NCBI RefSeq assembly: GCF_900182615.1
Contig: NZ_FXTE01000002.1
Location: 248,001 to 312,000, forward strand
Reading direction: 5' to 3'
DNA length: 64,000 bases
Source of the DNA: Ruegeria faecimaris
GTDB lineage: Bacteria > Pseudomonadota > Alphaproteobacteria > Rhodobacterales > Rhodobacteraceae
Of this stretch, positions 2,911 through 25,768 are shown one piece after another. Under the pieces are notes generated by a model that did no database searches, was not told the DNA's origin, and saw only the letters and a list, made by a program, of their open reading frames with translations. The position numbers were made by a program, and so were the translations under genes. The stretch's first letter is position 1. Each line of letters opens with the position of its first letter.

Positions 2911-3068
2911 CTTGCTGTCCTTGTTGTGGCGTTTGAATGATTATACCATTCCCCTAATGACAGTTTTCGTCATCAGAACATCCTTGTCCTCCGCGACATT
3001 TGCCACCTTGTCCCAGGCCTCGCTCTGACGCATAAACAACTTCAGCCAAGTGAGTACGGAGAGGCGAC

Positions 3069-3857: not shown

Positions 3858-3865
3858 GCCGGTTG

Positions 3866-4744: not shown

Positions 4745-4838
4745 TTCAAGCCTTAGTTTTTCTACGCCAAGAAATAGCAAATCTGCTTTGCGCTGTCACG
4801 GAATGGCTGCCACCATGCTGCAAAACGGAGGACGTCCA

Positions 4839-6146: not shown

Positions 6147-6198
6147 ATCACCGTTTCTGAAAGCAACCGGCGCGCACGGTGTTTTGTGATCGTTCAAA

Positions 6199-6225
6199 CC
6201 CGGCCTTCACAAATGAATGGCCGGG
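6199..6225. terminator. Hairpin between convergent SHMT-like gene and hutU
   Basis: CCCGGCC (6199-6205) pairs perfectly with GGCCGGG (6219-6225), and the stem can be extended inward by TTCA/TGAA. It sits midway between two convergent stop codons and so may end transcription in both directions. There is no clear T-run on either side, so its strength as an intrinsic terminator is uncertain. Confidence 0.5.
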
Positions 6226-6247
6226 ATCTGTTCCGGTTGATCCGGGC

Positions 6248-7921: not shown

Positions 7922-8026
7922 CGGTCATTCCCTTCAGATTGGATAGAGCCCGACAGGGCAAGGGCATTGAAGTTTTCAATCATGTGTCTCGGCTGCGGTC
8001 GCGCGCCATCATGGCAAAGGCCGCCA

Positions 8027-10767: not shown

Positions 10768-10824
10768 GAGAATCTGATCCCAAGTTGCAATGCTTCTGAA
10801 ATAGGTATACTGATTACTGCATAA

Positions 10825-10834
10825 TGTGTACACA
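10825..10834. promoter_or_regulatory. Candidate HutC operator 1 (palindrome)
   Basis: A perfect 10-base palindrome, TGTGTACACA, lies between the divergent hutI and hutC, 58 bases upstream of the hutI start. HutC-type GntR regulators are known to bind TGTA-containing palindromes, so it is a plausible operator. No binding data are available here. Confidence 0.45.
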
Positions 10835-10931
10835 AAATAATGAAAGGCATCGCGCCGAAGCCGCCTTCTTGGAGTCAAATTAGGTGGAGGTCTTAGGTGC
10901 GGGGCAGAGTTACATGCTTCATTGCAGATGT

Positions 10932-10949
10932 CTTATGTGTATGTATAAG
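10932..10949. promoter_or_regulatory. Candidate HutC operator 2 (inverted repeat)
   Basis: An inverted repeat with arms CTTAT (10932-10936) and ATAAG (10945-10949) around GTGTATGT lies 35 bases upstream of the hutC start. Its centre resembles the TGTA-containing palindromes bound by HutC proteins and could serve autoregulation of hutC-hutG-hutF. Confidence 0.4.
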
Positions 10950-10983
10950 CCAAATAAGGCTGGTTTTTGAGTTGGGGAGTTTT

Positions 10984-11688
10984 ATGGCAAGACCTCAGGG
11001 GAACATGAGCTTTCGGGACATCAAGCAGGTGGTTTTGGATCGAATCCAAACCGGTATCTGGAGCCCGGATTCCATTTTGCCAAGCGAGATGGATTTGGCC
11101 GCTGAATTCTCAAGTACACGAACAACGGTCAACCGGGCGTTGAGAGAGCTTGCCGAAGAAGGATACCTGGAAAGAAAACGCAAGGCCGGCACGCGGGTTC
11201 TGAATTCTCCCATCAGAAAGGCGCAATTTGCGATCCCTTTGGTGCGTGACGAGATAACGGCCACCGGTGCGGCCTATCGGTACTCTTTGGTGGACCGAGA
11301 GGTGCAACCCGCACCGTCCTGGCTGGCATCACGCCTCGACCTGAAAAAAGAGCAGGACGTCTTGCACCTGCGATGTATGCATTATGCCGACAACGTAGCG
11401 TTTCAGCTTGAGGTGCGATGGATTGTTGCCGACGTTGTACCTGAAGTGTTGGAGGAAAGTTTCGAACAATCGGGGCCGAATGACTGGTTGGTTAACAGGG
11501 TGCCATTCAGCAATCTGGAGCTTAGTTTCATGGCGACCAAGGCTGATGGTGAAATCTCCAAGTTCCTGGACACGCCACCTGGCGACCCGATCTTTACTGC
11601 CGAACGCATTACCTGGCTGCGTCGCGCGCCGGTGACATATGCCAAGCTTTACTTTGCGCCGGGATACCGGATGACGACGCATCTCTGA
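10984..11688 (+). CDS. hutC: Histidine utilisation repressor HutC (GntR family)
   Basis: A 234-residue GntR/HutC-family regulator, expected to repress hut genes until urocanate binds. Residues 1-70 form the winged helix-turn-helix (PSEMDLAAEFSSTRTTVNRALRELAEEGYL region, ending in a KAGTRV wing). Residues 90-230 form the UTRA effector domain, with LDLKKEQDVLHLRCMHYADN and the RITWLRRAPVTYAKLYFAPGYRM ending that is characteristic of HutC. The start MARPQGNMSF is preceded by GGGGAG; a longer frame upstream is not conserved. It is divergent from hutI and leads a plus-strand unit with hutG and hutF. Confidence 0.93.
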   Translation: MARPQGNMSFRDIKQVVLDRIQTGIWSPDSILPSEMDLAAEFSSTRTTVNRALRELAEEGYLERKRKAGTRVLNSPIRKAQFAIPLVRDEITATGAAYRYSLVDREVQPAPSWLASRLDLKKEQDVLHLRCMHYADNVAFQLEVRWIVADVVPEVLEESFEQSGPNDWLVNRVPFSNLELSFMATKADGEISKFLDTPPGDPIFTAERITWLRRAPVTYAKLYFAPGYRMTTHL

Positions 11689-11784
11689 TCTGACCGGAGT
11701 CCAGCTTTTGGGGCGGTAAAAAATGTCGGTTTTCGTCGGTCCGCCGAATTATGGGCTGACAGAACATCAAACAAAGGGAACGCG

Positions 11785-12588
11785 ATGGCTGTTCAGAATC
11801 TGATGACGTTTAAGGCGGGTTCAACGCCGATTTTGCTGAATGTCCCACATGCCGGAACCTTGCTGCATCCGGAGGTAGAACGCCGTTTGCGACCCGCCGC
11901 GCTGGAGCTGAAGGATACGGATTGGCACATGGACAAGCTGGCGCTGCCTTGTGCCGAATTGGGTGTGGGTGTCATGGCGGCGCAGTATTCGCGCTATGTG
12001 GTGGACCTGAACCGTTCAGCTGATGACGCGCCGCTTTATTCCGGTCCGACAACCGGCCTGATATCGCAAATCGATTTTGACGGTCAGCCGCTTTATCTGG
12101 AAGGGCAAGAGCCAGATGGGCAAGAGACAAAGGCGCGCATCCAATCCTATTGGGCACCGTATCATCAGGCGCTCAAGGCTGAGATTCTGCGGATCAGGGC
12201 GCAGTTTGGCACCTGCATACTGTTGGATCTGCATTCCATCCGTTCCGAGGTGCCAAGGCTGTTTGATGGGGTGCTGCCGGATTTGAATCTGGGCACAAAT
12301 AGCGGGGCCAGCACAGCCGCGCGCTTTGAGGCCTGCGCCGAAAGATCGCTGGGGTCCGGCCAATACAGCTTTGTCAAAAACGGCCGCTTTAAGGGAGGCT
12401 ATATTACCCGGCACTATGGCCAACCCGACCAGAACATTCATGCGCTGCAACTCGAAATTGCACAGTCCACCTATATGATCGAGCACGCCCCTTGGGACCT
12501 TGTGCCCCCTAAGGCAGAGATGCTTGGCGCCGCGATCAAGAACCTTGTTACCGCGTTGCTGGATGAGGTTAACACCACCCGTGGATGA
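11785..12588 (+). CDS. hutG: N-formylglutamate deformylase
   Basis: Last step of the five-enzyme histidine pathway: hydrolysis of N-formyl-L-glutamate to glutamate and formate. It is a 267-residue member of the N-formylglutamate amidohydrolase family. Conserved blocks are ILLNVPHAGTLLHPEVERRL, the DTDWHMDKL segment, the zinc-site LDLHSIRSEVPRLFDG and GGYITRHYGQPDQNIHALQLEI near the C-terminus. AAAGGGAA precedes the ATG. It lies 96 bases after hutC and 44 bases before hutF. Having both HutG of this type and HutF means the formate-releasing branch is used, not direct formamide release. Confidence 0.95.
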   Translation: MAVQNLMTFKAGSTPILLNVPHAGTLLHPEVERRLRPAALELKDTDWHMDKLALPCAELGVGVMAAQYSRYVVDLNRSADDAPLYSGPTTGLISQIDFDGQPLYLEGQEPDGQETKARIQSYWAPYHQALKAEILRIRAQFGTCILLDLHSIRSEVPRLFDGVLPDLNLGTNSGASTAARFEACAERSLGSGQYSFVKNGRFKGGYITRHYGQPDQNIHALQLEIAQSTYMIEHAPWDLVPPKAEMLGAAIKNLVTALLDEVNTTRG

Positions 12589-12632
12589 CCCAAACAGACT
12601 CGCCGATACGGCATCCAAGTAAAGGAAAGTGG

Positions 12633-14009
12633 ATGACAACTGGATTTCATTTCAAACAGGCACTGACGGACCAGGGCTGGCTTAGCAATATCTCCGTAAC
12701 CGTTACGGAATCTGGTGAGTTCGGAGCACTGGTCGCGGACGACAATCCCAACGCCTATCCGGTGATTGAAAGCCCGGTTGTGCCAGGCATGCCCAACCTG
12801 CACAGTCATTCCTTTCAATACGCGATGGCGGGGTTATCAGAAGTGCGCCGGAATCCGGTCGACAGCTTCTGGTCCTGGCGCGAAATGATGTATTATTTCG
12901 CTCATAACGTATCGCCCGAGGACCTGCAGGCAATCACTGCCAAGCTGTATATGGAATTGCTCAAAGGCGGCTATACCGAGATTGTCGAGTTTCATTATCT
13001 GCACAACGAAGAGGATGGAGCGTACTACGCCCGACCTGAGGAGCTGTCTTCTGCTATTGTCTCTGCTGCAGATCGAACGAGCCTCAGCCTGACGCATCTT
13101 CCGGTGTTTTATGCACACGCAAATTTCGGTGGCGTGTCTCCGCAAGATGCTCAGAGGCGTTTCACCAATGCACGTGATCAATACGCTTTGCTGATCGAAA
13201 CCCTGAAGCAGCAGCATGAAAAGCTTAACCTCGGAATCGCGCCGCATTCCCTGCGCGCCGTAACCGAGGATGAAATGTCATGGCTTATGGAGCTTCGGCA
13301 AGACCAGTTGCCGAGGTGTCCAGTTCACATCCATGTGGCCGAACAGACTAAAGAGGTGGAAGACAGTATCGCCCATAGTGGCAAACGCTCTGTTTCGGCG
13401 CTGATGGACCAGGTCCAGATTGACGCCGCGTGGTGCCTGATCCATGCCACCCATCTGGATGACGCCGAGGTTGCGGCCATTGCCGCTTCGGGCGCGACCG
13501 TAGGTCTGTGCCCGCTGACGGAATCAAATCTTGGAGACGGGATTTTCCGGGCGGTCGATTTCGTGGCAGCAAATGGCCATTTTGGTATCGGCTCGGACAG
13601 CAACATCTGTACCCAGGCAGTTCAGGAGTTGCGCACACTGGAATATAGTCAGCGCCTGCTGCACCGGCAGCGCAATGTTATGTGCTCCAAGGACATGCCC
13701 AATGTTGGCGGTTATCTCTGGCAGACCGCCGCCCAGGGAGGAGCGCGTGCAGCCGGGCGCAATATCGGCCGTATCGCAGAAGGGTGCCGTGCCGATTTTG
13801 TAGAACTGTCTTACGATAGGAATGGTCTGATGGCGGCGGTGTCGCCCGGAGCCTTGCTGGATTTCCACATGTTCTCGGGTCAGCAGGCAGAAATCATTGC
13901 CGTCTATGTTGCTGGTCAAAAGGTCATTGAAGATGGTCAGCACCCCGATCACGAGTCCATCGACGCCGGATATATTTCCACCATACTTCGGTTGGCGCAA
14001 AAACTATGA
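12633..14009 (+). CDS. hutF: Formimidoylglutamate deiminase
   Basis: Fourth step of histidine degradation: N-formimino-L-glutamate plus water gives N-formyl-L-glutamate and ammonia. It is a 458-residue amidohydrolase with metal ligands H57-S-H59 in PGMPNLHSHSFQ, GIAPHSLRAV, VHIHVAEQTKEVED and the GIGSDSNICTQAVQELRTLEY block carrying the metal Asp. The start chosen, MTTGFHF, has AAAGGAAA upstream. An alternative in-frame ATG at 12585 overlaps the hutG stop, but it lacks a comparable ribosome binding site and adds unconserved residues. Confidence 0.95.
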   Translation: MTTGFHFKQALTDQGWLSNISVTVTESGEFGALVADDNPNAYPVIESPVVPGMPNLHSHSFQYAMAGLSEVRRNPVDSFWSWREMMYYFAHNVSPEDLQAITAKLYMELLKGGYTEIVEFHYLHNEEDGAYYARPEELSSAIVSAADRTSLSLTHLPVFYAHANFGGVSPQDAQRRFTNARDQYALLIETLKQQHEKLNLGIAPHSLRAVTEDEMSWLMELRQDQLPRCPVHIHVAEQTKEVEDSIAHSGKRSVSALMDQVQIDAAWCLIHATHLDDAEVAAIAASGATVGLCPLTESNLGDGIFRAVDFVAANGHFGIGSDSNICTQAVQELRTLEYSQRLLHRQRNVMCSKDMPNVGGYLWQTAAQGGARAAGRNIGRIAEGCRADFVELSYDRNGLMAAVSPGALLDFHMFSGQQAEIIAVYVAGQKVIEDGQHPDHESIDAGYISTILRLAQKL

Positions 14010-14051
14010 TGAAGGGTGAATAGAACCAACGGAACTCATTACTGCGCGAGC

Positions 14052-14445
14052 TTAAGAACCTTGGGGCACTTGGTGCTGGTCAGGCTGAATACATTGTCCG
14101 AGATCGCCGAGGAATTTTCTGTCACCCAGCCCATTGGTTTCGAACATTCCAGTTGGTTCGCGCCTTCCGTACCTTGTCACATCAATGGCGCGCGTGATGC
14201 TGGCGGATCTGAGCGAAACGGAACTGGATCACCGTACCCCCCATGACGGGTCTGGGCATGTGTGCGGTGCTATTAACAATTCCGGCCACCGCAATCAGCT
14301 GGGATCTGCAGAAGATCTGATCAAACAGGTTTGCCACTGCGCGGCACAATATCAAATTGCAGTGATGCAGGTGGCGGCATCCCAGTTTGCCGATGTATTC
14401 CGTCATCGTGACAGGCTGCATATGCGGCCTGAATTAGTCTGGTAA
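14052..14445 (+). pseudogene. Remnant of an IclR-family regulator
   Basis: No intact gene fills the 624 bases between hutF and the tRNA, but two plus-strand frames hold fragments of an IclR-type regulator in the right order. In one frame, LRTLGHLVLVRLNTLSEIAEEFSVTQP at 14052 onwards resembles the IclR helix-turn-helix (SEIA motif). In the next frame, from about 14134, VGSRLPYLVTSMARVMLADLSETELD resembles the start of the effector domain. GSGHVCGAINNSG with AEDLIKQVCHCAAQ resembles its end. The frame change and the missing central effector region indicate decay with internal deletion. The assignment rests on motif similarity only. Confidence 0.5.
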
Positions 14446-14633
14446 GTTCGACTCGGTTAGGGCCTTTTGAGGCATGGCTTCGAGGTGCAGTCCACCCAGC
14501 AATCAAGGTACCTGTATAAGCTTGCTCCGGTCAGAGATAATGCTGAAATCAGAGAGGTTTTTTGCCCCAAAACCTCATCTCTCCATCAAGTTGACAAGGC
14601 GAGGGATTTGGCTGATACAGCCAGAATATGAGC

Positions 14634-14711
14634 GGGCCGTTAGCTCAGCTGGATTAGAGCAGGGAACTTCTAATTCTCAGGTCGGGGGTTCGAGTCCTCC
14701 ACGGCTCGCCA
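14634..14711 (+). tRNA. tRNA-Arg (anticodon UCU), CCA encoded
   Basis: A complete cloverleaf can be drawn. The acceptor stem GGGCCGT (14634-14640) pairs with ACGGCTC (14701-14707), with discriminator G14708 and encoded CCA at 14709-14711. The D stem is GCTC/GAGC, and the anticodon stem GGGAA/TTCTC has loop CTTCTAA giving anticodon TCT. A five-base variable loop follows, and the T arm is GGGGG-TTCGAGT-CCTCC. It is 78 bases long. It lies 37 bases from the stop codon of the last gene of the unusual six-gene cluster. tRNA 3' ends are common insertion sites for genomic islands, but no integrase or second copy of the 3' end was seen. Confidence 0.97.
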
Positions 14712-14748
14712 AATGCACAATTCCTAATTGAGTATACATCCGCCACCC

Positions 14749-16731
14749 TCAGATTACGACGTTGGCAAAGCTCTCGACTGTGACGATCGGACGTGGTTGT
14801 CCCGCCAGGCTTTCTGCATCGGTCAGACGCTGCGCCAATGGGTCGGCATCGCTAAGGGGGCCAAAGTTCAGCCCGGTTAATTTTTCCAAATCCCGGACGC
14901 GGATCTGGAATGTCTTATAGGCACCAAACTCAAATCCACCGACAGATTCCACGCTCCCCTGGTTCGAGAGCATCTGTTGGATGACCTCAACCTGGCTGAG
15001 CACATAGGCGGTGGAATGAAGGCGAAGAATGCCTTCGCTGCCATCCTCTTCGGCCAGCATGGTCACGAGCTTGAAGAACTTCAGGGGTACCGGCGATCCG
15101 GTATCTTTCAACATCGGCTCGTCACCGGTCAGGATTGGTCCGGTGAACACACAGGCCTTGAATCCATGTGTGCGCACATTTGTCATGATAAAGTTCTCAA
15201 GACCCAACCATTGCGCGTGGCTCCGGTTAAAGGCCCGGTGCTGTGGGGCAGCAGCGGTATAGTGAAAGCTGTCATCATTGGCCTGTTTGGCCTGTGCATC
15301 ATCGACACCCCAATTTGTCGCCGCACGGCGAACCAGGTGGCCCCGGTCAATATCCGCGTGATCATAATCCTCTTTGCCGAGTTGGACATTTGCCGGGATG
15401 CGCAGGTCAGCGAACCACTTGTCGCTACCTCGTTTTTGCGGTCGGGTCTTGGCACCATCGATATTCAGCGCGGCAATGATCGGTGTTTTGAAAGTCGCAG
15501 AATAGAGAATGCCGAAATTCTGATAGCGCAATTCGTTGGGGCGTTCCGGGGTCGCATCCGACGGAGTGGCAAGCCCAAACGCATTCGGTACCATCGGCAG
15601 AGGGACCTCTGCCACTTGAAGGAAGTCCGGGTTGTACCCGTCGCGCGGTTCAAAATGGTCTGCGTCATGGTTTCCGTCAGGTCGTTCTGGCCGGACGATT
15701 TCAGTTCCGGGGATCGAGGTCGGCACCGCCCCGTCCAACAATGCGTTGACCGTGCTGATCCTGACCGCCGAGTTTCCGACGCCGAAGGTACCTGCATAAT
15801 GCAGACCAACCGCTTTGCCGCTGTCCAACGAGATCACAGGCGAGCCCGAGTTGCCGCCCAAAGTCGTGCAGTCATGGCGCAGGATCGTCACGCCGCCATC
15901 TTCGATGAGAAATCCGGGCGAAAAGCGTTTCACGTCATACAGGTCGTTGAAATAGTTGGACATCTGCGTGGGGTCATTGCGCAGGGAATCCTTGGCGGGA
16001 TACCCGATCACCGCGACGCATTCGCCGTGCTGGGCATCCGTATCGGCGCGCGGGATCGGCGTAGGCGTGAAATTGGCCGTATCTGCGGGCAGGTCGATCT
16101 TTCCAAGCGCGATATCTGCGGCCGCATCTTCGGCGATATAGGTGAACTTGCGAATGTCGAAAAGCCGTTCGGGGTCTTGTGCCGCGCCGACCTCTTCCAG
16201 GAAATCTATCCGGGCGCCATAGCGGGCATTGCCGGGGGCAAACATGAAGACACCATCGCCCAGGAAACTGCGCCGCGCGACCAGCTTGGCAACATGGCGA
16301 TTGGTGATGATCAGCAGATGGTCGTCCTTCTTTTCGATCACCCAGCCAGTGCCACCCCAGCTAAAGTCATGATTGATAAACTCGATCCGCCCGACCGAGG
16401 CGATATTGTCTTCGGCCTTGCCAATACGAATGTCGATATCCGGCGGAAAGTCGGATGACAGCGATTGTTTGCCTTCAACCTTGCCGCCGCGCACGATCAG
16501 GGGAGGGCGTCCGACCGCGCGCACGATGGCTTCAAGTTGCGAGGGCGTAGAGCCAAAGCTTTCCAGCTTATTCATCTGCGCGCCCATCAATTCACGGGCA
16601 CGATCCGGTGTCAGGCCCATTTCACCAAGAATGCCCGGACTGGTATCCAGAGCCTCACGCGCCTTGTCGATTGTTCCGGCATTTCCAAGGCCTTCCAGCC
16701 GGCTGAATGTTTCCTTTTCGAAATCGCTCAT
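14749..16731 (-). CDS. Trypsin-like protease fused to a NUC1 (DNA/RNA non-specific) endonuclease
   Basis: A 660-residue two-effector protein. Residues 1-100 are a charged helical region of unknown role. Residues 105-340 form a trypsin-fold protease with an intact triad: His146 (ITNRHV), Asp206 (ADIALGK) and Ser295 (GGNSGSP). Residues 400-640 form a DNA/RNA non-specific endonuclease (NUC1 type) with the signature DRGH at 462-465, where His465 is the general base, and a downstream FNRSHAQWLGLENFIMTNV stretch carrying the expected Asn region. No signal peptide is visible, so it would act in the cytosol unless released. It is last in the minus-strand run, 51 bases after the NTPase. A plausible role, by inference, is an effector cutting nucleic acid after protease-dependent or NTPase-dependent activation. 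Confidence 0.88.
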   Translation of the reverse strand: MSDFEKETFSRLEGLGNAGTIDKAREALDTSPGILGEMGLTPDRARELMGAQMNKLESFGSTPSQLEAIVRAVGRPPLIVRGGKVEGKQSLSSDFPPDIDIRIGKAEDNIASVGRIEFINHDFSWGGTGWVIEKKDDHLLIITNRHVAKLVARRSFLGDGVFMFAPGNARYGARIDFLEEVGAAQDPERLFDIRKFTYIAEDAAADIALGKIDLPADTANFTPTPIPRADTDAQHGECVAVIGYPAKDSLRNDPTQMSNYFNDLYDVKRFSPGFLIEDGGVTILRHDCTTLGGNSGSPVISLDSGKAVGLHYAGTFGVGNSAVRISTVNALLDGAVPTSIPGTEIVRPERPDGNHDADHFEPRDGYNPDFLQVAEVPLPMVPNAFGLATPSDATPERPNELRYQNFGILYSATFKTPIIAALNIDGAKTRPQKRGSDKWFADLRIPANVQLGKEDYDHADIDRGHLVRRAATNWGVDDAQAKQANDDSFHYTAAAPQHRAFNRSHAQWLGLENFIMTNVRTHGFKACVFTGPILTGDEPMLKDTGSPVPLKFFKLVTMLAEEDGSEGILRLHSTAYVLSQVEVIQQMLSNQGSVESVGGFEFGAYKTFQIRVRDLEKLTGLNFGPLSDADPLAQRLTDAESLAGQPRPIVTVESFANVVI

Positions 16732-16782
16732 GGCATTGGTTCCTCAGCTAATATGAAGTTTTCAAACTCAGTCGATCTGCCT

Positions 16783-19700
16783 CTAGGGATCGAGGTATTT
16801 TGGCCCCCGCCCTGTTTCGGCAAACATGGTCAGTGCCGGATGAAACACCACGGGCGCCCGGCTTTTGGTAAGCCAACCAAGGATTTCCTCTGTTCCTGAA
16901 CCATGGGTGAGCCCCCGAGCAACTGGTGCAAGGCGGCGTTGCAGGGTTTGAGTGGACTTACCGCGCCCTTCGTTCAAAGGATCCGCCCAGAAGTTTAGAA
17001 CTCGGTCTGCCAGACCATGACTGCCGCGTTCCAAAAGGTCGACGGTTCGACTTGATGTCAGGTCGCTCCATTTCCGTGTGGAATTCCATTCTGGTGGCGG
17101 TGGTGAGGGGAAGGCCCAATAGCCGCCGATGACTTGCTGCCAACGTCTTGCCGCGCGTGCGAGCGTTGGCAAGTCAGGGATCGGGTGGTAAAAACTGTAC
17201 CCCTCGGCCCAATCAGCGGTAAGGCCCATCGCGCGCAGCAATGACAGCACGTCGGTGGGCCGGTCGGACATCTGGGCCATTGCGTCATCGATCCCCTGCA
17301 GGCCCGGGGCAAAGATGTCAGCCGCCTCATACAGGCCGGTGGCAAGGTTGGACAAATCGCTCAGAACACGACCCCGGCCGCTCACCTGAAACTCTTCGAC
17401 AAGTGCCAGCATCCGGTCGAAATAGGGGTTCAACGGGGCCAGGGCGAGCCCGTAATCATCCGTCGGTAAGTCTGGGTTGGGCATGTCTGGTTCCGAATAC
17501 TCCAACCCGAATTCCTGACGGATACCCCCCGCGAAGCGCAGTCTTTCATAGGTCAGTTCACGCGGGCCGTGATCCAGATAGGGGGCGATCAGGCCCAGAA
17601 CCTCATGATCACCCTCAAAGCTCATACCCGTTGCCAGAAGAGCGAATTCAAGCGCTGCTGACTGCATTCCAATTCGAGACGAGCTGTTCACGACGCGAAG
17701 AGCTATGTCGCGAAAGTCCTTATCGCGGAGTCGGTTAACGAGCTCTTCGAATTCAAACTCGGCATAAATCTCTAGGAGCATCCGGCCTTCCAGTTCGGGC
17801 CTTTGTTGTGCCTCTCTCAGCAAGGTATCTGCTGGCAACAAATTGAATAGGCTTCGCGCCATGGACCAATGACCGCTCTGCCAGTTGTGACACAGGATCA
17901 GGATGCCAACTTCGCTTGCCGGATCATAGGCGCCTTTCAATCCTTCGCGTATGATATGTGTTGCCTCGCGGCGCTGGCCCTGCTCCAACATCGCTCGCAG
18001 GTCTTTGACTGCGCGACTATCTGGTGCGGCCACATAACCGCGACCTTTGACGATCCGTGCTCGTGCCGTCGCGGCCTTGGACTCAACCTGTACAAGGTTT
18101 TCGGGGGGAAGTTCAGAACCGCTGTCCAGCCCAGTGGCGCCGTATTCCCGTTGTTTGGTTTCTTGCACCGGGGCCGAGCGCTGGCCGCGAGCTTGACGGA
18201 TCAGGTCCTGCGCGTCGATTGGCAGCTCTTTCAACAGCTGTTCGGGGAAGCGTTCAGCCAGTGAGGGATTGATGCTTGGAGGGGCTTCTCCGACGCGCAT
18301 AAGCTGAAGCGAATGATAAAGGAACAACAGTGGATCGCGGTCAGCGTAATAGTCACAAGCTGCACGGTTTACCTCTGCGGTTTCGACGGGGCTTTGGTTG
18401 TAGGTGGGTTCTAGCAGGTCCCGCCGCATGTCGGCCTTATGGGTCAGTTGACCATCAGTGGCGGCGTCCATCAGCCAGGATTGCAGGCCAAGATCCGCGA
18501 CGATTGTGCCTGCTTCGCTGCTGAGGTCACCCAGCCCAAGCGCCGGTGCAACGATGCCGTTCAGGTTGTCGGCGTTTATCTCGCTTAGAACCAAGCCGTA
18601 ATTGGCAATGCCACGCAGGTGCACTGGCAGGCGCGATGTGATGGCCCGGTTCACGATGCCCGCGGCAATCGGGTCATTCTCGTCTTCGGTGACTTCGGCC
18701 AATCGGCCCTCGGTCTGCACCTCGTCAATCAGCAGCCGCAATTTCAACGGATTGCCCTGACAGCGCAAAATGATCTGATCGCGGAATTCCTCGGGGATTC
18801 CGGCCTCATCCAGCGTTTGATTGACCAACTCGTCTTCGATCTGGTCGAGCTTGATGTATTCGCCCCGTCTTGGGTGATCTTCGCCGAAAATCGGCCCGCG
18901 ACCGGCTGAGATGATCGATACTTCGATCTGTTCCTTTTCGACAAAGCGATCCAAATCGTTCATGAGGTTGTTCACGAAGGTCGCGCCCTGACCATGCAAT
19001 ACTTCGAGCGTATCCAGCAGGATAACCAGGCGCAGACCGGCATCAGCCACCGCATTGATCATCGCCCGGATCAACTGACGCGGTGTAAGGTCCGAGCTTT
19101 CGTATATCTCCCGTGTGACCTGTTCGGAATAGCGCAACCGCAATTTGCGGAGTTCGGGGGCCGCTTGGGGTATTGCGGTACCGATCTGACGCGAGATCTC
19201 TTCAAAGATTGGACCGGTCTGCAATGAAGGCTGATCGAAATCCAGCCGGATCAGGATGACGTCTTCGCGTTCGCTTGTAATCTGGATGATGCGTTCCAGC
19301 AGGTAGGATTTTCCGATCCCGTACTGACCTTCGATATGCAGGGTTTTCAAAGGGGCCGAGCGCATAGGGTGGTCGATCCAGCGTTGAATCTTGTCGATTT
19401 CGCTGACACGCCCCACGAATTTTTCACCCAGGCGCTCTTTTGACCGGCGCTCGCGTCTGAGCAGGTTCAATCGGCTGCGCAGCCTGAACAGGCGGTCATA
19501 TCCCGGCGCTTTTTGGCCTGCACGCTCTAACGTGACAAGGTGCTGCGACAGGTTTTGTTCATCTGTTTCCGCCTCGATAAGGTGATCCAGAGCGCCCGGT
19601 GCGAAACCTTCTCGTCCCGACAGAGCCTGCACGATATCGGTCTGCGTTGCCGCCGAGTCGAACTCTTCGATCCCGGACAATTCGCGATGTCGTGCAGTCA

Positions 19701-19905
19701 GGCGCAGTATCCATTTCGTAGAGCTGCCCGACTTATCAACATGGCTCAACTCGCGCAGGGATGACATCAGCCGGGCCCGTAGCACCCGGTTGCCGTACTC
19801 ATCTTCGCTAAGCACCTCGCGCATAAGCTGCCGTGGTTCAAATGCCCCGCGAAGGGCTGCGGCGCGCAGCAGACGCGAACGGAGTTCTTCCTGCGCCTGG
19901 TTCAT
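16783..19905 (-). CDS. Large STAND-like P-loop NTPase
   Basis: A 1040-residue predicted NTP-dependent switch. An N-terminal region (1-160) of helical and winged-helix character precedes the NTPase at about 163-450. That domain opens with FVGRVSEIDKIQRWI, has Walker A GQYGIGKS (193-200), Walker B LRLVILLDTLE (Asp298), a sensor-like VSIISAGRGP, and LRCQGNPLKLRLLI, matching the GNPL-type helical module of STAND proteins. The C-terminal 550 residues are helical and probably form a sensing or scaffold region; no known repeat is obvious. It overlaps the preceding protease gene by four bases (ATGA), so the two are translationally coupled. In STAND families such proteins oligomerise on ligand sensing and activate linked effectors; that role here is inference. 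Confidence 0.8.
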   Translation of the reverse strand: MNQAQEELRSRLLRAAALRGAFEPRQLMREVLSEDEYGNRVLRARLMSSLRELSHVDKSGSSTKWILRLTARHRELSGIEEFDSAATQTDIVQALSGREGFAPGALDHLIEAETDEQNLSQHLVTLERAGQKAPGYDRLFRLRSRLNLLRRERRSKERLGEKFVGRVSEIDKIQRWIDHPMRSAPLKTLHIEGQYGIGKSYLLERIIQITSEREDVILIRLDFDQPSLQTGPIFEEISRQIGTAIPQAAPELRKLRLRYSEQVTREIYESSDLTPRQLIRAMINAVADAGLRLVILLDTLEVLHGQGATFVNNLMNDLDRFVEKEQIEVSIISAGRGPIFGEDHPRRGEYIKLDQIEDELVNQTLDEAGIPEEFRDQIILRCQGNPLKLRLLIDEVQTEGRLAEVTEDENDPIAAGIVNRAITSRLPVHLRGIANYGLVLSEINADNLNGIVAPALGLGDLSSEAGTIVADLGLQSWLMDAATDGQLTHKADMRRDLLEPTYNQSPVETAEVNRAACDYYADRDPLLFLYHSLQLMRVGEAPPSINPSLAERFPEQLLKELPIDAQDLIRQARGQRSAPVQETKQREYGATGLDSGSELPPENLVQVESKAATARARIVKGRGYVAAPDSRAVKDLRAMLEQGQRREATHIIREGLKGAYDPASEVGILILCHNWQSGHWSMARSLFNLLPADTLLREAQQRPELEGRMLLEIYAEFEFEELVNRLRDKDFRDIALRVVNSSSRIGMQSAALEFALLATGMSFEGDHEVLGLIAPYLDHGPRELTYERLRFAGGIRQEFGLEYSEPDMPNPDLPTDDYGLALAPLNPYFDRMLALVEEFQVSGRGRVLSDLSNLATGLYEAADIFAPGLQGIDDAMAQMSDRPTDVLSLLRAMGLTADWAEGYSFYHPIPDLPTLARAARRWQQVIGGYWAFPSPPPPEWNSTRKWSDLTSSRTVDLLERGSHGLADRVLNFWADPLNEGRGKSTQTLQRRLAPVARGLTHGSGTEEILGWLTKSRAPVVFHPALTMFAETGRGPKYLDP

Positions 19906-21710
19906 TCTTCTATCTCCAGAAAGCGTTTGGCCTCTTGGCGAACACGGGTGACAACGGTTTCCAGATGTTCGCCATCGAATTCACCTGTGTTGTCAGGGCT
20001 CAACCCGGCCAGAGCAGAGTCCACCATTGCCCGTCGAGCAGCCGGTGTCAGCTCTTTTGCCGGGTCAAGCGAAGTGATCATGCTGTTAATTGTAGCCTCA
20101 ACATCGCTACGTGTGAATGGTCCCAGCTCTTCCACCAATAGGCCGCTGCGCTGCGCGCCGTCGACAGCGCCGACATTGGCAAAACGCAGGGGCGACAGGC
20201 GATAGGTCTCATAGCCTGCGAGGATCAGGCGCAGATTCTCGGATGTGGGCAAGCATTTGGCGATGTGCTCGAACTGTACCTGGGCACGTGGTGAGAGCCC
20301 TTCGGGCGGGTTGTCGAAATAGATCCACCATGTTTGCCCTGCGGTTTTGGCGGCCTGATCCATGTCAGCAATCAGGGTCTCCGCGCGGCTGCCTTCGTAT
20401 GCAACATCGGTAGTCTGGGCGGCGGTTGTTCCAGCAGCAGCGTCTGGCGAGGCGACGGTCCCGTTGGCCTTCTCGGCAAGATCAGCAAGCAAATCGTCCG
20501 TATTCAGGGTCGGCCCCAATCGGATGCAACGATGTTGCGGCGCGGCGTTAGGTGCTTCTTGCATCAGCAGATAGGATTCCAGCATGTCATAGCTGAATCC
20601 GAGACCACGAATAGACGTCGTATCCTCGCGCCTGATCCAGATCCCACGCAGTTTGGATTTGGGATGATCCAGCATATGGGCAAGCCCGGTTACGAATTGG
20701 TTGCGGCCGATGATGATGGTTCCGTCAATGTCGCGGCTCAGCGACCACATGTCCCGCTGGTTCGAGTTCTTGCTGATCAGATCTTGGAAGTCGGGGTCAT
20801 CGTGGAACTGCTCGAAAGGGACAAGCCGTTTGGTCGTCTCCCATTTGCCCTGGTGGATGCCCAGAAACCTGAACTGGCTGTCAAAACCGGGGCCACCCGA
20901 TGACCCGCCGGATGTGTCGATGTCATGAGGGAACCGCTTGGCGCCAGGTTCTCGGTGCACTTTGCCGGGCATGAACCCCTTGGTGACACCTTCGGGGTAG
21001 TGGACCAATGTGAACAGGTCTGCACCCTCAAAATCGGGGGGATCGCCGGTCACATCGACACTGCCATAGGTATGCCCCAGCGGCAGGAATATCCGCAGCA
21101 GCGCGATATCCACCTCATCGCCCGGCGGCAGGTTCCCTGCCTTTTCACTGTCGTGATAGGGCCAGAGCTTTACGCATTTTGCCCGGTACCGCTTTTCGTC
21201 CGAGGCCAGTATTTCAAGCCGAGGGTCGACCCCGGCGGGCACGGCGTTTAGCGGGTCCAGAACATGGGCTGCGGTCAGCACCAGGTTTGGGGCCACAAAC
21301 GCGCCGGATCCTTCGAATGTGTTGTTGATCCAGATCTGACAGCGAAAGCTTTCCGCGCGCGGGGCAAAATCGCCCAATGCAGCAAAGTCGAACGAATTAT
21401 TCGCCGGTGTGCCGATCAGGGTGCCGTCAAACCGAGCGATGTTTTCGGCAAAAATCAGGTTACGGTCGCGCGGCACAGGGTCCGCGCCGCGCGCGCGCAG
21501 AAAATTGAGGAACTGTTTGACCTTCGCAGCGTCGACCAGAATTTCCAGCAAGACATCGGCAAGCGTTTCGCCGATATCTTCGTCTACACTTTCCTCGACG
21601 GCTTCATAATTCACCGGGTCATCAGGGTCGGGAAACAGCGCAGTCAAAGCATGACGCACAATCGGTTCATGCTTTCGGATTGCAATCCGGATATGCGCTG
21701 CATTCACCAT
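19902..21710 (-). CDS. Trypsin-like protease with helical N-terminal domain and possible pseudo-ATPase C-terminal domain
   Basis: A 602-residue protein in three parts. Residues 1-80 are an all-helical acidic domain, resembling in size and position the effector-associated (adaptor) domains of bacterial conflict systems. Residues 85-310 form a trypsin-fold protease with triad His149 (LVLTAAHV), Asp201 (EVDIALLRI) and Ser271 (GSSGGPG). Residues 350-600 contain alternating strands and helices: WWIYFDNPP could be a Walker B-like strand and LRLILAGYETYRL a following strand, but there is no P-loop, as in inactive STAND-like modules. A longer frame exists upstream inside the subtilase gene; the ATG at 21710, seven bases after that gene's stop, is preferred. 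It overlaps the NTPase start by four bases. Confidence 0.82.
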   Translation of the reverse strand: MVNAAHIRIAIRKHEPIVRHALTALFPDPDDPVNYEAVEESVDEDIGETLADVLLEILVDAAKVKQFLNFLRARGADPVPRDRNLIFAENIARFDGTLIGTPANNSFDFAALGDFAPRAESFRCQIWINNTFEGSGAFVAPNLVLTAAHVLDPLNAVPAGVDPRLEILASDEKRYRAKCVKLWPYHDSEKAGNLPPGDEVDIALLRIFLPLGHTYGSVDVTGDPPDFEGADLFTLVHYPEGVTKGFMPGKVHREPGAKRFPHDIDTSGGSSGGPGFDSQFRFLGIHQGKWETTKRLVPFEQFHDDPDFQDLISKNSNQRDMWSLSRDIDGTIIIGRNQFVTGLAHMLDHPKSKLRGIWIRREDTTSIRGLGFSYDMLESYLLMQEAPNAAPQHRCIRLGPTLNTDDLLADLAEKANGTVASPDAAAGTTAAQTTDVAYEGSRAETLIADMDQAAKTAGQTWWIYFDNPPEGLSPRAQVQFEHIAKCLPTSENLRLILAGYETYRLSPLRFANVGAVDGAQRSGLLVEELGPFTRSDVEATINSMITSLDPAKELTPAARRAMVDSALAGLSPDNTGEFDGEHLETVVTRVRQEAKRFLEIEE

Positions 21711-21717
21711 CCGTGGC

Positions 21718-23325
21718 TTATCCCATGCCCAAATAGGCGCTGAGGGCCGGTTTGTCCGACAATGCGGTGTCCAGCCCCGAGGTCGGGGCGTCTTCGCCAA
21801 CCATGGCCTCGGCCCCACCATCGCTTTCGGCGATGCGTTTGCGGGCCCCACGGCGATAGCTGAGCCAGATGATCTCATTGGCGTAATCGGCCATGTCAGG
21901 GGTAACCTCTCCGGCGGCGGTGCTGTCTGTTCCCGCAAGATGCGAGACCAGAATGTTCAATGTTGGGGTCGCATTCGGATCGGGTGCCGCCGGGCTTTCG
22001 GCGCCTGTGGGTAGCGGCGCGTCCAGGACCGCCTGAGCGTTGATGATGCCCGCGCCAAGATCGGTGGCCCCGTTCCAGACGGCTGGCTTGTTCATCCCGT
22101 GTTTGGCACAGTGCAACCACATCGCCTGAACGGTTGTTCCTGCATTCTGGGCCTTTTGCAACAGCGCCGCCCGACCGCCGTGATGCGCGACCCAAAGTGC
22201 AGCGACACCGCCTGTCATCGAGGTGGCAAGCGTGGTGCCCTGGCTGGCGCGGATACCCGAGTTTGGGTCGGTCGCCTTGTTCTTGGCCGCGCCCCAAACG
22301 TTTTCGCCATAGGCCGAAAAGCTGACCTCGGGGCCACGCCCAGTTTTGCGCCAGGGGCGTCTGTCGGGCTGCAGTGCAGCGACCGCTGTGCAGATTTCCA
22401 GTGATGCATAGGCGGCGGGAAAGACCACGTTCGGATAACAGTTGCCCGCCGCGCAGACGATGACCAGCCCGGCCTGTACCGCATTGCGCAGCGCCTGTTC
22501 GGTTGAAGAGACCCGCACCGGCCCGCCAAGCGCCATCACGATGACATCGGCGTTTTGGTTGACCGCATGAGAGATTGCCGCAGGAATACGCAGCTGTGTC
22601 ATGTCGATCACCGATTTGATCGCCCGGATTGGCAGAACCTTGGCCGCAGGGGCCGTACCGGTTATCGCCCCCGGCGAGGTGGTATCGCCATTCATATCGG
22701 CCCCGCCCCGCGATCCGACGACCGAGGTGACAAGCGTGCCATGACCAGGATGTTTTAGGACGCCGCCTGAAAACCGGTCACGCGCATCCCCGTTCCCTTC
22801 GACAAAATTCCACATGCCGTTGGTTTCGATCACGCCGGCCAGTTCGCTATGGTCGGAATAGCCCGTGTCGATCACCGCGACCTTGCTACCCTGACCCCGG
22901 GTGTGCTGCCAGGCCAGCGGTGTCTTGATCCGTTTGTGGTGCCAGCCATAGGGCCGAGAGTTGTCGCGCTTGGTTTCGCAGAAACTGAGAAAGCTTTCCG
23001 TACCCACATGTGCAGCCCCGTACAGGCTGTCTGGCAAGACCGGGTTGGCCTCGGCTAAGTCCAGCGCCATACGGAGGGCACGGCCAAATGCAAAAACCTC
23101 ACGCTCTTGGCCTTTTGGATCGATCTCGGGGAATTCAACAAAGAAAAATCGATCCGCATCTGCGTCGAAGACCGCTTGGGTACTGGTGGCAACATCAGGA
23201 AGTGCACTACCCACACGTTCTTGAATAGCCGACAACGATTGCGGTGTATCCGAGACCACTTCAATGACTAGCGGATCGCCGTCGAGCGAGACATCGGACC
23301 TTGTTAGGGCGTCATATTCCTGCAT
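21718..23325 (-). CDS. Subtilisin-like (S8) peptidase with Thr at the nucleophile position
   Basis: A 535-residue S8-family protein. After a roughly 120-residue N-terminal region comes the subtilase domain with Asp153 (VAVIDTGYSDH), His195 (HPGHGTLV) and the oxyanion Asn295 (CAAGNC). The nucleophile box, usually GTSxA, reads GTTLATSMTGGVAAL, so position 365 is Thr instead of Ser. The protein is thus either a pseudo-protease, a Thr-nucleophile enzyme or a scaffold. There is no signal peptide. The C-terminal 100 residues are low-complexity and then helical. The start at MQEYDALTR overlaps the DUF2182 gene by 14 bases. It sits between the copper genes and the trypsin gene. Confidence 0.85.
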   Translation of the reverse strand: MQEYDALTRSDVSLDGDPLVIEVVSDTPQSLSAIQERVGSALPDVATSTQAVFDADADRFFFVEFPEIDPKGQEREVFAFGRALRMALDLAEANPVLPDSLYGAAHVGTESFLSFCETKRDNSRPYGWHHKRIKTPLAWQHTRGQGSKVAVIDTGYSDHSELAGVIETNGMWNFVEGNGDARDRFSGGVLKHPGHGTLVTSVVGSRGGADMNGDTTSPGAITGTAPAAKVLPIRAIKSVIDMTQLRIPAAISHAVNQNADVIVMALGGPVRVSSTEQALRNAVQAGLVIVCAAGNCYPNVVFPAAYASLEICTAVAALQPDRRPWRKTGRGPEVSFSAYGENVWGAAKNKATDPNSGIRASQGTTLATSMTGGVAALWVAHHGGRAALLQKAQNAGTTVQAMWLHCAKHGMNKPAVWNGATDLGAGIINAQAVLDAPLPTGAESPAAPDPNATPTLNILVSHLAGTDSTAAGEVTPDMADYANEIIWLSYRRGARKRIAESDGGAEAMVGEDAPTSGLDTALSDKPALSAYLGMG

Positions 23326-24013
23326 GGCAAATATCCTTATACAAAAGCAAAAGATGGTGGGGCGCATGGGCCAACGCCGTAAGCGCCAGCGCGGTCAGCA
23401 ACAGGGTGAATGCGCTGGCGCGGGGGTCGGGGCGAAGAACGGCGCGCTCCGACAGGATGATCACTGTCAAAAAGATCATGACGGCAAAGTCGTGGGTCCC
23501 CAGCATGACAAGCATCATCGGCAAGCAAGAGGTGATGCAATCGCGCGCATAGGTCAGCCCAAAGATCAGCACATCGCGGTCGGCACTTGGACCAAAGGCG
23601 GCCAGGACCGGACGGCTGTGGCATTTCCTTAATGCGCTGCGTTTTTGCGGGCTGAACTGCCATACTGCGGCGCACAGGCAAGCCAACGGTGCAAACACGG
23701 TTTGGTGCAGAACCGGCGCCAGAAGAAACGCAGCAAGCGCGCCTGCGACCAGCCAGGCCAACAGATATGGCAGAACAAACAGAAGTGCCGCGCGTGATCT
23801 TCGATCTGCGAAGCTGCGCGCGCGGACATGTGCGATCTGCGGAACAAGCGTTGGAAGCATCATCGCCAGAACCATCGCCGGCCAATGCAATGAGGGCGCG
23901 GGCACCAAAGCAAGCCAAAGCCATGCAAGCGCGGCCACGCCAAGTGTCGTGCGTATTTCGATATCGGCCCGTCCAAACAGGCGAGGGCGATCTATTCCGG
24001 TAGCCGACGCCAT
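23312..24013 (-). CDS. DUF2182 predicted metal-binding integral membrane protein
   Basis: A 233-residue membrane protein with about five hydrophobic segments. It shows the DUF2182 signatures: MMLPTLVP with a following His, WQFSPQKRSALRKCHS, and a C-x3-C near-membrane motif (CITSCLPMMLVM). The family is described as a predicted metal-binding membrane protein and its biochemical role is not settled. The start lies six bases after the tyrosinase stop and the end overlaps the subtilase gene, so it is certainly in the same transcript. Pairing with a type-3 copper enzyme suggests a part in copper supply or in membrane coupling of the system, which is inference. Confidence 0.85.
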   Translation of the reverse strand: MASATGIDRPRLFGRADIEIRTTLGVAALAWLWLALVPAPSLHWPAMVLAMMLPTLVPQIAHVRARSFADRRSRAALLFVLPYLLAWLVAGALAAFLLAPVLHQTVFAPLACLCAAVWQFSPQKRSALRKCHSRPVLAAFGPSADRDVLIFGLTYARDCITSCLPMMLVMLGTHDFAVMIFLTVIILSERAVLRPDPRASAFTLLLTALALTALAHAPHHLLLLYKDICHAGI

Positions 24014-24019
24014 GGGCGA

Positions 24020-25447
24020 TCAGTCGAAATAAAGGTTTATGCGGCCGATCTCAATGTCTGGCTGCTGTTCTGTTGGGGCGATCTGTTCCAACCCTGGTAC
24101 TTGGCCAAAGGCCTCGCTGTCATCAAACATCCGTTGAAACCGGATTTGCAACCTGTTGGCGTCGCCTTGGCTCAGCCCCAGTGCAAAGGCCAGCTTTGTG
24201 ATCTCGTAAGTCACCGCAAGGCCGTTGCCGCCATGTGGGCCGTCCGGGTTGCTTGCCTGTTCAAGGCCAAACGGCGACAAGGTGCCGATAATCGCTGGCG
24301 GCAAAGCGTCATCCGGAAGATCCAGCATGACGCGGTAAGATCCGGGCATGCCACGGCCCTTGATCCCCTCAAGATGCAGGTGAACGCGCCGGGTGGTGCC
24401 GGGGGCCTCGGCGCCGGAAATCAACGCGACTGAAGTGTCGAGCTTTACGCCGGCAGTGGTCATTGCACCACGCAACTTGACCGGAGCTTCGCTTGCGCCG
24501 GCAAGCTCGGGTTCCTTGCCTGCCATGACGAACTCCTCTGCTGGAATGGCGGGTTCTACTGCTGGTGGAACGCCGTCATATTGAAACCCGTGCAGGACGC
24601 TTGTGCTGTCCAGCATTTCTTCGCTGTTGAAGGTGAATGCCGCGCCATCGCCATCATGCATCGAGAATGTTTGGCCTGTGCGCCACAGTGGCGAGGGTGG
24701 GGAGACATGGCTCGGGTCGGCGTTGCGCCAGACTTCCCATAGCCGATCAATGTTGCAATGGTGCAGCCAGAAAATCGGATCAAAGGCTGCAGTGGCCGGA
24801 TTTGCCATAAAACCGCCAGAGCCCCCAATCCAAACGTGTATGTCGTTATGGGGCGTGCTTTCCAATGCGCCATTGTCCCCACCGCCGGGGTGAAACCCGG
24901 TTTGCGGGCCACCAAACCCTGATGAGAATCCGGGCGTATCATTGGTGAAATCTTCATGATCCAACGCATCCAGCGACACCACGTCGTCCGGAAATCCGAA
25001 ATCTCCATTCACCACTACACGTCGGCGGGAAAACAGGAAGTTGCGCGTGCCGTCTGACTTGGTCGGCTCACGGAACGCCACAGGAAGGCGGCGCGCATTC
25101 GGGTTTTCTGACAGGGGTTGGGAATAGTCCCAATAAGGCAGCGCCCAATCCTGCGGCCCGCCCAGATCGGCGACGGCTTTGCCGACGACGGCCTCAAATG
25201 CGGTGATATATCCGCGGTGCCAGGGCAGGAAGAACCAGCTTTGGTGCTGGCATTGGTTCCAGAATTGTCCGGAACCGGGAATGTCCGGAAAATTCTGCGG
25301 CTGCCCATGAACTGCGCCCATGAAAAACCACGATGTCGGGTCTTCCAGATCTCGGTCCCAGAGAGCTTCGACAGCACGCTCATACCAGATCAGAGTTTCG
25401 TCGTTGGCTGGCAGGGTCCAAACGTTTTTGCGGATTCTTGTGGCCAT
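24020..25447 (-). CDS. Tyrosinase-family copper oxidase with C-terminal extension
   Basis: A 475-residue type-3 copper protein, expected to hydroxylate monophenols or oxidise o-diphenols to reactive quinones with O2. CuA ligands are H47, H68 (QCQHQSW) and H77 (LPWHRGY). CuB ligands are H200 and H204 (HNDIHVWIGG) and one of H229/H230 in DPIFWLHHCNIDRLW. The core ends near residue 250, and about 220 further residues follow, which is longer than small bacterial tyrosinases. In plant and fungal enzymes such extensions cover the active site and are removed by proteases. There is no secretion signal. GAGGT precedes the ATG. It is the first gene of the six-gene minus-strand cluster. Confidence 0.92.
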   Translation of the reverse strand: MATRIRKNVWTLPANDETLIWYERAVEALWDRDLEDPTSWFFMGAVHGQPQNFPDIPGSGQFWNQCQHQSWFFLPWHRGYITAFEAVVGKAVADLGGPQDWALPYWDYSQPLSENPNARRLPVAFREPTKSDGTRNFLFSRRRVVVNGDFGFPDDVVSLDALDHEDFTNDTPGFSSGFGGPQTGFHPGGGDNGALESTPHNDIHVWIGGSGGFMANPATAAFDPIFWLHHCNIDRLWEVWRNADPSHVSPPSPLWRTGQTFSMHDGDGAAFTFNSEEMLDSTSVLHGFQYDGVPPAVEPAIPAEEFVMAGKEPELAGASEAPVKLRGAMTTAGVKLDTSVALISGAEAPGTTRRVHLHLEGIKGRGMPGSYRVMLDLPDDALPPAIIGTLSPFGLEQASNPDGPHGGNGLAVTYEITKLAFALGLSQGDANRLQIRFQRMFDDSEAFGQVPGLEQIAPTEQQPDIEIGRINLYFD

Positions 25448-25752
25448 AACAATACCTCAAACTGCAAATAAATCTTGGAATCTAATAATGCGCCGAGTGT
25501 AACACTTGCGTGGTTTTATGTTAACCAAAATGAATCCAAGCCATAGCAGGGTAGGCCTAGACAGGTGTTGACAGTGCCGATGTGCGTTTCCCAGATAAGG
25601 TGATTTCAGAGTGACGCGCGGCCTTTCGCTTGCATTCTAAGTCAGAGGCGCCAGTTACTGTTTATTTGTGAATTGGACGGCCGCAGCTGCAGTGGGCACA
25701 CTTGCCGAGTACCCGAAAACAAGGGTGAATTCACGTAACTGTGAAATAATTC
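25448..25752. other. Divergent promoter region between tyrosinase operon and iolG
   Basis: A 305-base stretch without a gene, noticeably AT-richer than its surroundings. It should hold the promoter of the minus-strand six-gene cluster on its left side and the iolG promoter on its right side, just before the LacI-type operator at 25753. I could not define -35/-10 boxes with confidence, and no repeat of the tRNA-Arg 3' end was found here. Confidence 0.5.
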
Positions 25753-25768
25753 TTGCAACCGGTTGCAA
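25753..25768. promoter_or_regulatory. LacI-family operator upstream of iolG
   Basis: A perfect 16-base palindrome, TTGCAACCGGTTGCAA, lies 44 bases upstream of the iolG start. It has the even length and central CG typical of LacI/GalR operators. Near-identical copies lie at 26806, 38292 and 41680, all in the inositol region, and the last is upstream of the LacI-type regulator itself. Confidence 0.85.

Follow-up and report, generated by a model that had tools for sequence, protein, structure and literature searches.

A six-gene block behind a tRNA-Arg gene

The window analyzed here is a 64,000-nucleotide stretch of the Ruegeria faecimaris genome (assembly GCF_900182615.1, contig NZ_FXTE01000002.1, positions 248,001 to 312,000). 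At 14749..25447 it carries six open reading frames (ORFs), all open and all on the minus strand, that encode in order a tyrosinase, a PpoB2-type copper chaperone, a subtilisin-family (S8) protease (P0003), a trypsin-like protein (P0004), a P-loop nucleoside triphosphatase (NTPase; P0005), and a fusion of a trypsin-like protease with a NUC1 endonuclease (P0006) (Table 1). Successive genes are joined by a 6-base gap, a 14-base overlap, a 7-base gap, a 4-base overlap, and a 51-base gap; these spacings assume start codons at 23325 for the S8 gene and 21710 for the trypsin protein gene, both of which agree with the starts of homologues. A preliminary description, made from the sequence letters, had listed the same six families in one direction with the same spacings; Pfam bears out the first and the ORF positions and homologue-matched starts the second. 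The last four genes, hereafter the core, correspond to an already predicted conflict system (System 3; Kaur et al., 2020), and what is new is the tyrosinase and PpoB2-type copper chaperone at its head. The arrangement is not a product of chance: the order of the last four genes recurs in 14 loci, the locus L012 has the complete set of six, and the locus L020 has the first five until its contig ends.

Table 1. Features of the six-gene block and its site, with positions in the window
Feature	Position	Strand	Basis and remarks
Tyrosinase (PF00264) with C-terminal DUF7868	24020..25447	-	Pfam (Tyrosinase, 6e-36; DUF7868); N-terminus without hydrophobic stretch; no other PF00264 gene found in its own genome
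PpoB2 (earlier name DUF2182) membrane copper chaperone	23312..24013	-	Pfam (PF09948, 4e-26); several hydrophobic segments
Subtilisin-family (S8) protease P0003, with N- and C-terminal extensions	21718..23325	-	Pfam (Peptidase_S8, 1e-24), motifs; no N-terminal hydrophobic stretch
Trypsin-like protease P0004, with N-terminal part of ~110 residues and C-terminal part of ~300 residues of unknown relation	19902..21710	-	Pfam (Trypsin_2, 4e-15), motifs
P-loop NTPase P0005 of AAA_16/STAND type, with N-terminal part of ~160 residues and long C-terminal part	16783..19905	-	Pfam (AAA_16, 8e-9), P-loop; STAND-like by AAA_16 plus weak NACHT/NPHP3_N matches
P0006: N-terminal part of ~110 residues, trypsin-like (V8-like) protease, NUC1/NucA endonuclease with DRGH	14749..16731	-	Pfam (Trypsin_2, 1e-14; Endonuclease_NS, 2e-40), motifs
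Putative insertion containing all six genes, lacking at this site in eight congener stretches, which have tRNA-Arg and then the Gfo/Idh gene	14712..25742	.	Congener comparison
tRNA-Arg (tct), one edge of the insertion	14634..14711	+	ARAGORN, at the site in seven of nine congener stretches

The block lies between a histidine-utilization cluster on its left and a Gfo/Idh oxidoreductase gene with sugar-transport genes on its right. DNA of the right flank was found in 22 of the 26 genus genomes searched (its own included), and nine congener stretches were hand-picked from the 21 others, mostly for a tRNA close by. ARAGORN finds tRNA-Arg in seven of these, and an eighth (L114) has a 59-base match to tRNA-Arg. 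In all eight, the tRNA is followed by 65 (L110) to 2,845 (L115) bases and then by DNA homologous to the window from 25739–25753 onward; the ninth (L118) has no tRNA within the stretch. Because the flanks sit so close together in these eight stretches, the six genes look like a single insertion at a variable site behind the tRNA gene. By coordinates, the tRNA and the right flank are less than 2 kb apart in three further congeners (G525, G445, G1284). In other congeners, the listed matches are separated by 14 kb (G1282), stand at a great distance (G1276), or fall on separate contigs (G641, G414, G1281), so the insertion site is not fixed in the genus. The histidine-utilization cluster (3857–14630) flanks the tRNA-Arg on the side away from the block. 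It is likewise missing at that place in six congener stretches (L110–L113, L115, L117), since the DNA ahead of the tRNA there matches window 2991–3856. The block looks mobile; no integrase is among the six genes, and the flanks of L012 were not found adjoining each other in relatives, so that no empty site was recovered for that locus.

Recurrence of the core and of the tyrosinase pair

Twenty loci emerged when one genome per species, across 84,980 species, was scanned with two short peptide patterns taken from the S8 alignment; three with a distant S8 protease (L035–L037) were dropped, and three more (L032–L034) are not core loci. In a recount over 22 loci, the genes for the S8 protease, trypsin protein, NTPase, and trypsin-NUC1 fusion follow one another on one strand in 14: the window, L010, L012, L013, L014, L018, L019, L021, L022, L023, L026, L029, L030, and L031. 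Four others (L020, L025, L027, L028) agree with this order until their contigs end. One locus (L024) is the same place as L013, and the S8 proteins of L040 and L041 are identical to those of L019 and L026. The 18 core loci found in the Rhodobacterales either show the full order (14/18) or are cut by contig ends (4/18), and the four genes are a compact cassette of this order. The preliminary description had proposed that homologues without a conserved gene order, or conservation of the copper genes alone, would speak against a cassette; the core order is kept in 14 loci, and the copper genes are not alone in being conserved as a group.

Partial versions of the core occur as well. A Paraburkholderia locus (L011) has its last three genes without the S8 gene; Phenylobacterium and Caulobacter (Caulobacterales; L032, L033, L034) have the S8 gene without the core order; and in a Polaromonas locus (L129), consecutive genes are annotated as serine protease, ATP-binding protein, and endonuclease. 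Relatives of the NTPase were found in seven plasmid records, of which two match at least 80% of its length; in six of 390 genomes from the order, where two of the matches are weak and partial; and in one of 289 genomes of the class, its own. On the megaplasmid of Ruegeria pomeroyi DSS-3 (L128, 3665–11742), an S8 gene, a trypsin gene, and a relative of the NTPase gene follow one another, with no annotated nuclease gene next to them. Three loci in other family genomes (L042, L043, L044) contain long frames that match both the S8 protease and the protease or nuclease parts of P0006, like the fusions described for System 3 (Kaur et al., 2020).

The tyrosinase and PpoB2 pair precedes the core in three of the 17 core loci with readable upstream DNA (L031, with less than 0.2 kb upstream, is excluded from this number, and L027 has only about 1.4 kb). 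The window and L012 have all six genes, and L020 has the first five before its contig ends. The preliminary claim that all six genes form one cassette therefore stands in part: the copper genes share one insertion with the core, and the six-gene form is a minority. The tyrosinases of L012 and L020 are 92% identical and so near kin that the three pair-bearing loci represent two lineages. The window tyrosinase is 60% identical to that of L012 and 58% to that of L020; none of the three is more than 38% identical to any other tyrosinase found, over at least 100 residues. They form one clade in the tyrosinase tree (support 99/100). The S8 tree groups the window with L018, L019, and L040, and L012 and L020 with L021, none of which has the tyrosinase; since pair-bearing loci are thereby placed beside pair-less ones, at least two changes are needed. 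Path lengths from the window are 0.76 and 0.79 for the tyrosinase and 0.88 (to L020) for the S8 protease, so the two have diverged comparably. Between L012 and L020, the ratio of nonsynonymous to synonymous substitution (dN/dS) is 0.08 for the tyrosinase, 0.08 for the S8 protease, 0.10 for the trypsin protein, and 0.26 for PpoB2; the tyrosinase is under purifying selection as strong as that on the S8 gene. The suggestion that every core once carried a tyrosinase that then decayed was rejected, as no remnant (nothing below E 0.2) was found in 15 tyrosinase-less core loci, 13 of them distinct. In L012 (3268–4602) and L020 (2094–3467), a WD40-repeat protein with an export-like N-terminus is encoded directly ahead of the tyrosinase; it does not occur in the window, and the L012 copy, the one scanned, carries a cytochrome c domain.

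Among 394 sampled family genomes (393 genera), a tyrosinase of the window type (E <= 1e-20) was found in one, the window's own. A full-length core S8 gene was found in four, the tyrosinase-bearing genome holding both, and three more S8 matches are long fusions. The other family carrier of the pair, G397 (L012), lies outside this sample. In a phylum sample, tyrosinases at E <= 1e-10 were found in 18 of 398 genomes, and an S8 or trypsin gene stands within about 8 kb in one of the 19 tyrosinase loci of the 17 genomes other than the window's, some of these stretches ending early at a contig edge. A position near such genes is thus not the rule for tyrosinases in this sample. The S8 profile used for this comparison was built from varied sequences including L065, L070, and L074; matches at those loci are therefore by construction, and only L075–L093 count.

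Tyrosinases beside proteases were also seen in more distant settings. A tyrosinase match was obtained in 60 plasmid records; ten of these were viewed, chosen by hand and partly for a named protease, so no rate can be drawn from them. In Sinorhizobium americanum (L065, 8474–11401), a 975-residue open frame joins an S8 protease to a tyrosinase, and a Sinorhizobium medicae record has the fusion at full length with 93% identity. In Bradyrhizobium (L070), a tyrosinase gene is followed by an S8 gene. A plasmid of Paracoccus sp. SMMA_5_TC (L127, 513–26365) carries a 14-gene run on one strand that starts with an EAD1-trypsin, an EAD1 protein, and a STAND-like NTPase related to P0005. It continues with five mutually related proteins of ~750 residues without Pfam matches and a PLD-like protein, and ends with a tyrosinase bearing a Tat-signal-like stretch, then a trypsin. 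L065 and L127 were considered as examples of the same system and set aside, because their tyrosinase proteins start, as judged by eye, with export-signal-like stretches, and L127 also has a 129-base gap behind its NTPase. Together with L070, these loci hint at a wider theme and are treated as leads rather than members.

Motifs, specificity, and a candidate cut site

The residues that mark active enzymes are in place, the trypsin motifs included. The tyrosinase has histidines H47, H68, H77, H200, H204, H229, and H230; the S8 protease has DTGYS, HGTLV, and GTTLATS; P0004 has TAAHV, DIALL, and GGSSGGP; the P-loop of P0005 reads GQYGIGKS; and P0006 has the NUC1 motif DRGH. This last motif is kept in 14 of the 15 core copies examined. 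It is lost in Paracoccus sp. MA (L010, 15192–17168), where the P0006-type protease motifs are retained; the aromatic pair that precedes GR.GY in the linker is HF, YF, or FF in the 14 other core copies and SL in L010. The Pfam matches of the six proteins, taken up to E = 1, include no EAD1 domain. Hydropathy shows a hydrophobic N-terminal stretch only in PpoB2, and the other five proteins are therefore read as cytosolic. Elsewhere in the window (59753–62818), a single frame of 1021 residues combines APH phosphotransferase, M23 peptidase, and class-III aminotransferase domains.

Among solved chains, the P0006 protease matches eight distinct sequences at E <= 0.01, and all eight are glutamyl endopeptidases or V8 protease, the matches covering a short stretch of some 40–55 residues around the active serine. 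The motif GLH, whose histidine we take to mark Glu specificity, is retained in 18 of 18 aligned P0006-type protease sequences, and the enzyme is predicted to be Glu-specific. The three core-linked tyrosinases read GASE where DUF7868 starts, with Glu as the fourth residue; in the eight other tyrosinases inspected (L046, L047, L066–L069, L073, L074), this position holds other residues. It is possible that this Glu is a cut site, although the numbers are small. A link of P0006 to known defense proteins is suggested by its N-terminal half (residues 21–330), which matches the PADLOC 'nacht' model at 1.7e-13.

A possible conflict system and its alternatives

The core matches System 3, which is described as a NucA and trypsin core with S8 and STAND partners, mostly from alphaproteobacteria, and for which a proteolytic cascade deploying the nuclease has been proposed (Kaur et al., 2020, eLife, section 32; PMC7159879). 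P0006 joins a NucA-type endonuclease to a trypsin, P0004 is a second trypsin, and the S8 protease and STAND NTPase (AAA_16 with a P-loop) lie in the same operon. Unlike System 3 examples with EAD1, the present set has none, and its NTPase is not fused to a trypsin; EAD1 on the trypsin paralogue is itself found only in a subset of System 3, and cores without it occur (Kaur et al., 2020). The preliminary description had regarded coupled NTPase, trypsin-fold, and NUC1 parts as typical of conflict systems, which this match to a predicted system bears out; its view that the parts form no described system does not hold for the core. Neither tyrosinase nor copper is mentioned in the main text of that study, nor are tyrosinase and phenoloxidase in that of its 2021 sequel (PMC8195603). 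No report linking a tyrosinase to phage defense, conflict, or a protease operon was among the matches listed from open-licence full texts in PubMed Central (PMC).

Precedents for individual steps come from several sources. In Marinomonas mediterranea, PpoB2 is described as involved in copper transfer to its partner tyrosinase (PMC2855505). The PpoB1-PpoB2 melanin operon likewise pairs a tyrosinase gene with a COG5486-type copper-transfer partner, as the tyrosinase gene here adjoins a PF09948 gene; here, however, three proteases, an NTPase, and a nuclease come after the pair. A trypsin-like protease is reported to activate a pro-nuclease in Hachiman and AVAST, and the Hachiman, AVAST, and Canu pairs (Tuck et al., Science 2025; PMC12799240) share with the present set a protease beside a nuclease in an NTPase setting and, possibly, proteolytic release of a pro-nuclease. 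Their nucleases belong to the metallo-beta-lactamase superfamily and are encoded apart, whereas the NUC1 (Endonuclease_NS) domain here is fused to the protease. The tyrosinase of Verrucomicrobium spinosum is reported to be latent through a C-terminal extension (0.67 versus 213 U/mg for the core enzyme) and to be activated by proteolytic removal of that extension (PMC10526336). DUF7868 likewise stands behind the tyrosinase core; the V. spinosum enzyme, unlike the present one, has a TAT signal.

We tentatively read the block as a protease-cascade conflict system to which a cytosolic, perhaps latent tyrosinase has been added as an extra effector, a reading that we would place a little short of an even chance. 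Judging by protein families and precedents, the P-loop NTPase would sense a signal of invasion or damage and set off a cytosolic cascade of the three serine proteases, which would free the NUC1 nuclease from its trypsin-fused form. The tyrosinase and its copper chaperone would provide a second, chemical effector in this lineage: PpoB2 would load copper into the tyrosinase, DUF7868 may hold the tyrosinase latent, and one of the proteases of the block, predicted to be Glu-specific, may cut between the tyrosinase domain and DUF7868. Quinones arising in the cytosol would then cross-link proteins and bring both the cell and the invader to a halt. The sequences themselves show gene content, gene order, a shared insertion, comparable divergence, selection, and intact motifs; a defense function for the block, its activation, perhaps by phage, and an antiviral role are conjectural. 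The preliminary description had the copper oxidase as a terminal effector, a role that it may have.

Arthropod phenoloxidase belongs to another family, of hemocyanin type, and the window tyrosinase matches only PF00264 and DUF7868 in Pfam. The insect prophenoloxidase cascade (PMC4700666) is comparable by analogy only, in that serine proteases are combined with a type-3 copper phenol oxidase. The insect enzyme acts outside the cell. It is conceivable, if rather unlikely, that the block is a bacterial intracellular counterpart of this cascade, in which the NTPase sensor would activate the Glu-specific and subtilisin proteases, these would remove DUF7868 from a copper-loaded pro-tyrosinase and free the nuclease, and quinones together with DNA cutting would stop infection.

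Several observations weigh against the conflict-system reading. The pair is missing from 14 of the 17 core loci, including the closest relatives of the window core (L018 and L019), and the S8 tree requires either two gains or one gain with several losses. The pair may have been gained twice, from the same source and at the same place, or be old with several losses; either history would tie it to this core, and neither proves a function. DUF7868 was considered as a mark of protease coupling and rejected: it was also seen on all seven PpoB2-paired tyrosinases that were scanned at core-less loci (L046, L047, L067, L068, L069, L074, and, below the cut-off, L073) and is therefore a general feature of that tyrosinase branch. 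Nor is there support for an inactive STAND domain in the C-terminal part of P0004, since a profile comparison with the NTPase gave no match. PADLOC models recognize no complete known system in the six-gene set; P0005 has no match to the Avs models, only to SngB and PDC-S20 at E 0.03–0.06. At E <= 1e-5 the NTPase has no match in 50,697 phage records, and no tyrosinase relative was found in viral contigs, so a phage home for the block was rejected. The neighbors of the core differ between loci, and the enrichment in defense islands anticipated by the preliminary description was not seen: among 20 flanking ORFs chosen by hand from seven other core loci, 18 have no PADLOC match at E <= 0.001. The two matches are a weak one to PD-T4-6 in L012 and one in L014 (15742–17280; G513), downstream of the core, to pVip (viperin) models at 2e-10, which may reflect only a general radical-SAM likeness. 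The Paraburkholderia locus L011, which adjoins CBASS genes, is the exception.

Some of these observations would be expected if the tyrosinase-PpoB2 pair were an ordinary melanin module, co-mobilized as cargo and without functional link to the proteases. Pairs of the same build occur without the core on four plasmids (L067, L068, L069, L073) and in two genomes (L046, L047), and, with most core loci lacking the pair, such an origin is possible, though in our view still doubtful. It accounts less readily for the position of the pair at the head of one tight operon within the same insertion as the core, for the recurrence of this order, at about 60% identity, in another genus, for the restriction of these tyrosinases to one clade not found elsewhere among the 394 sampled family genomes, and for selection on the tyrosinase as strong as on the S8 gene. 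The absence of defense-gene enrichment beside the core, L011 excepted, together with the absence of an antiviral experiment on this core from the literature covered, would also suit a programmed response to stress, to copper or phenolic compounds, or a cell death linked to differentiation; the block would then not be antiviral, and the tyrosinase would detoxify or polymerize phenols. Such a role appears improbable, since a rare and patchy distribution, a nuclease-protease fusion, and a predicted conflict family point to conflict rather than to housekeeping.

Tyrosinases are known to cross-link by way of quinones, which would also allow the enzyme to wall off an infected cell or biofilm by cross-linking proteins, rather than to kill. 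Physical containment has indeed been proposed for some effectors (Kaur et al., 2020). By hydropathy, however, the tyrosinase has no export signal and could work extracellularly only after lysis, and we regard this role as very improbable.

The conflict-system reading, with the tyrosinase as an added effector, would extend what is understood of such systems. System 3, only a prediction in Kaur et al. (2020), gains a compact six-gene set that is open to cloning and to study by point mutants. Most known effectors of bacterial conflict systems cleave nucleic acid, consume nucleotides, or breach membranes. If the reading is true, a copper oxidase set free by proteolysis would bring oxidation of small molecules and cross-linking by quinones to this repertoire, and the logic of animal melanization defense would be mirrored in bacteria. 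Should the prophenoloxidase-like version of it hold, protease-coupled tyrosinases may prove to be a recurring effector type, found beside proteases in separate lineages (L065, L070, L127).

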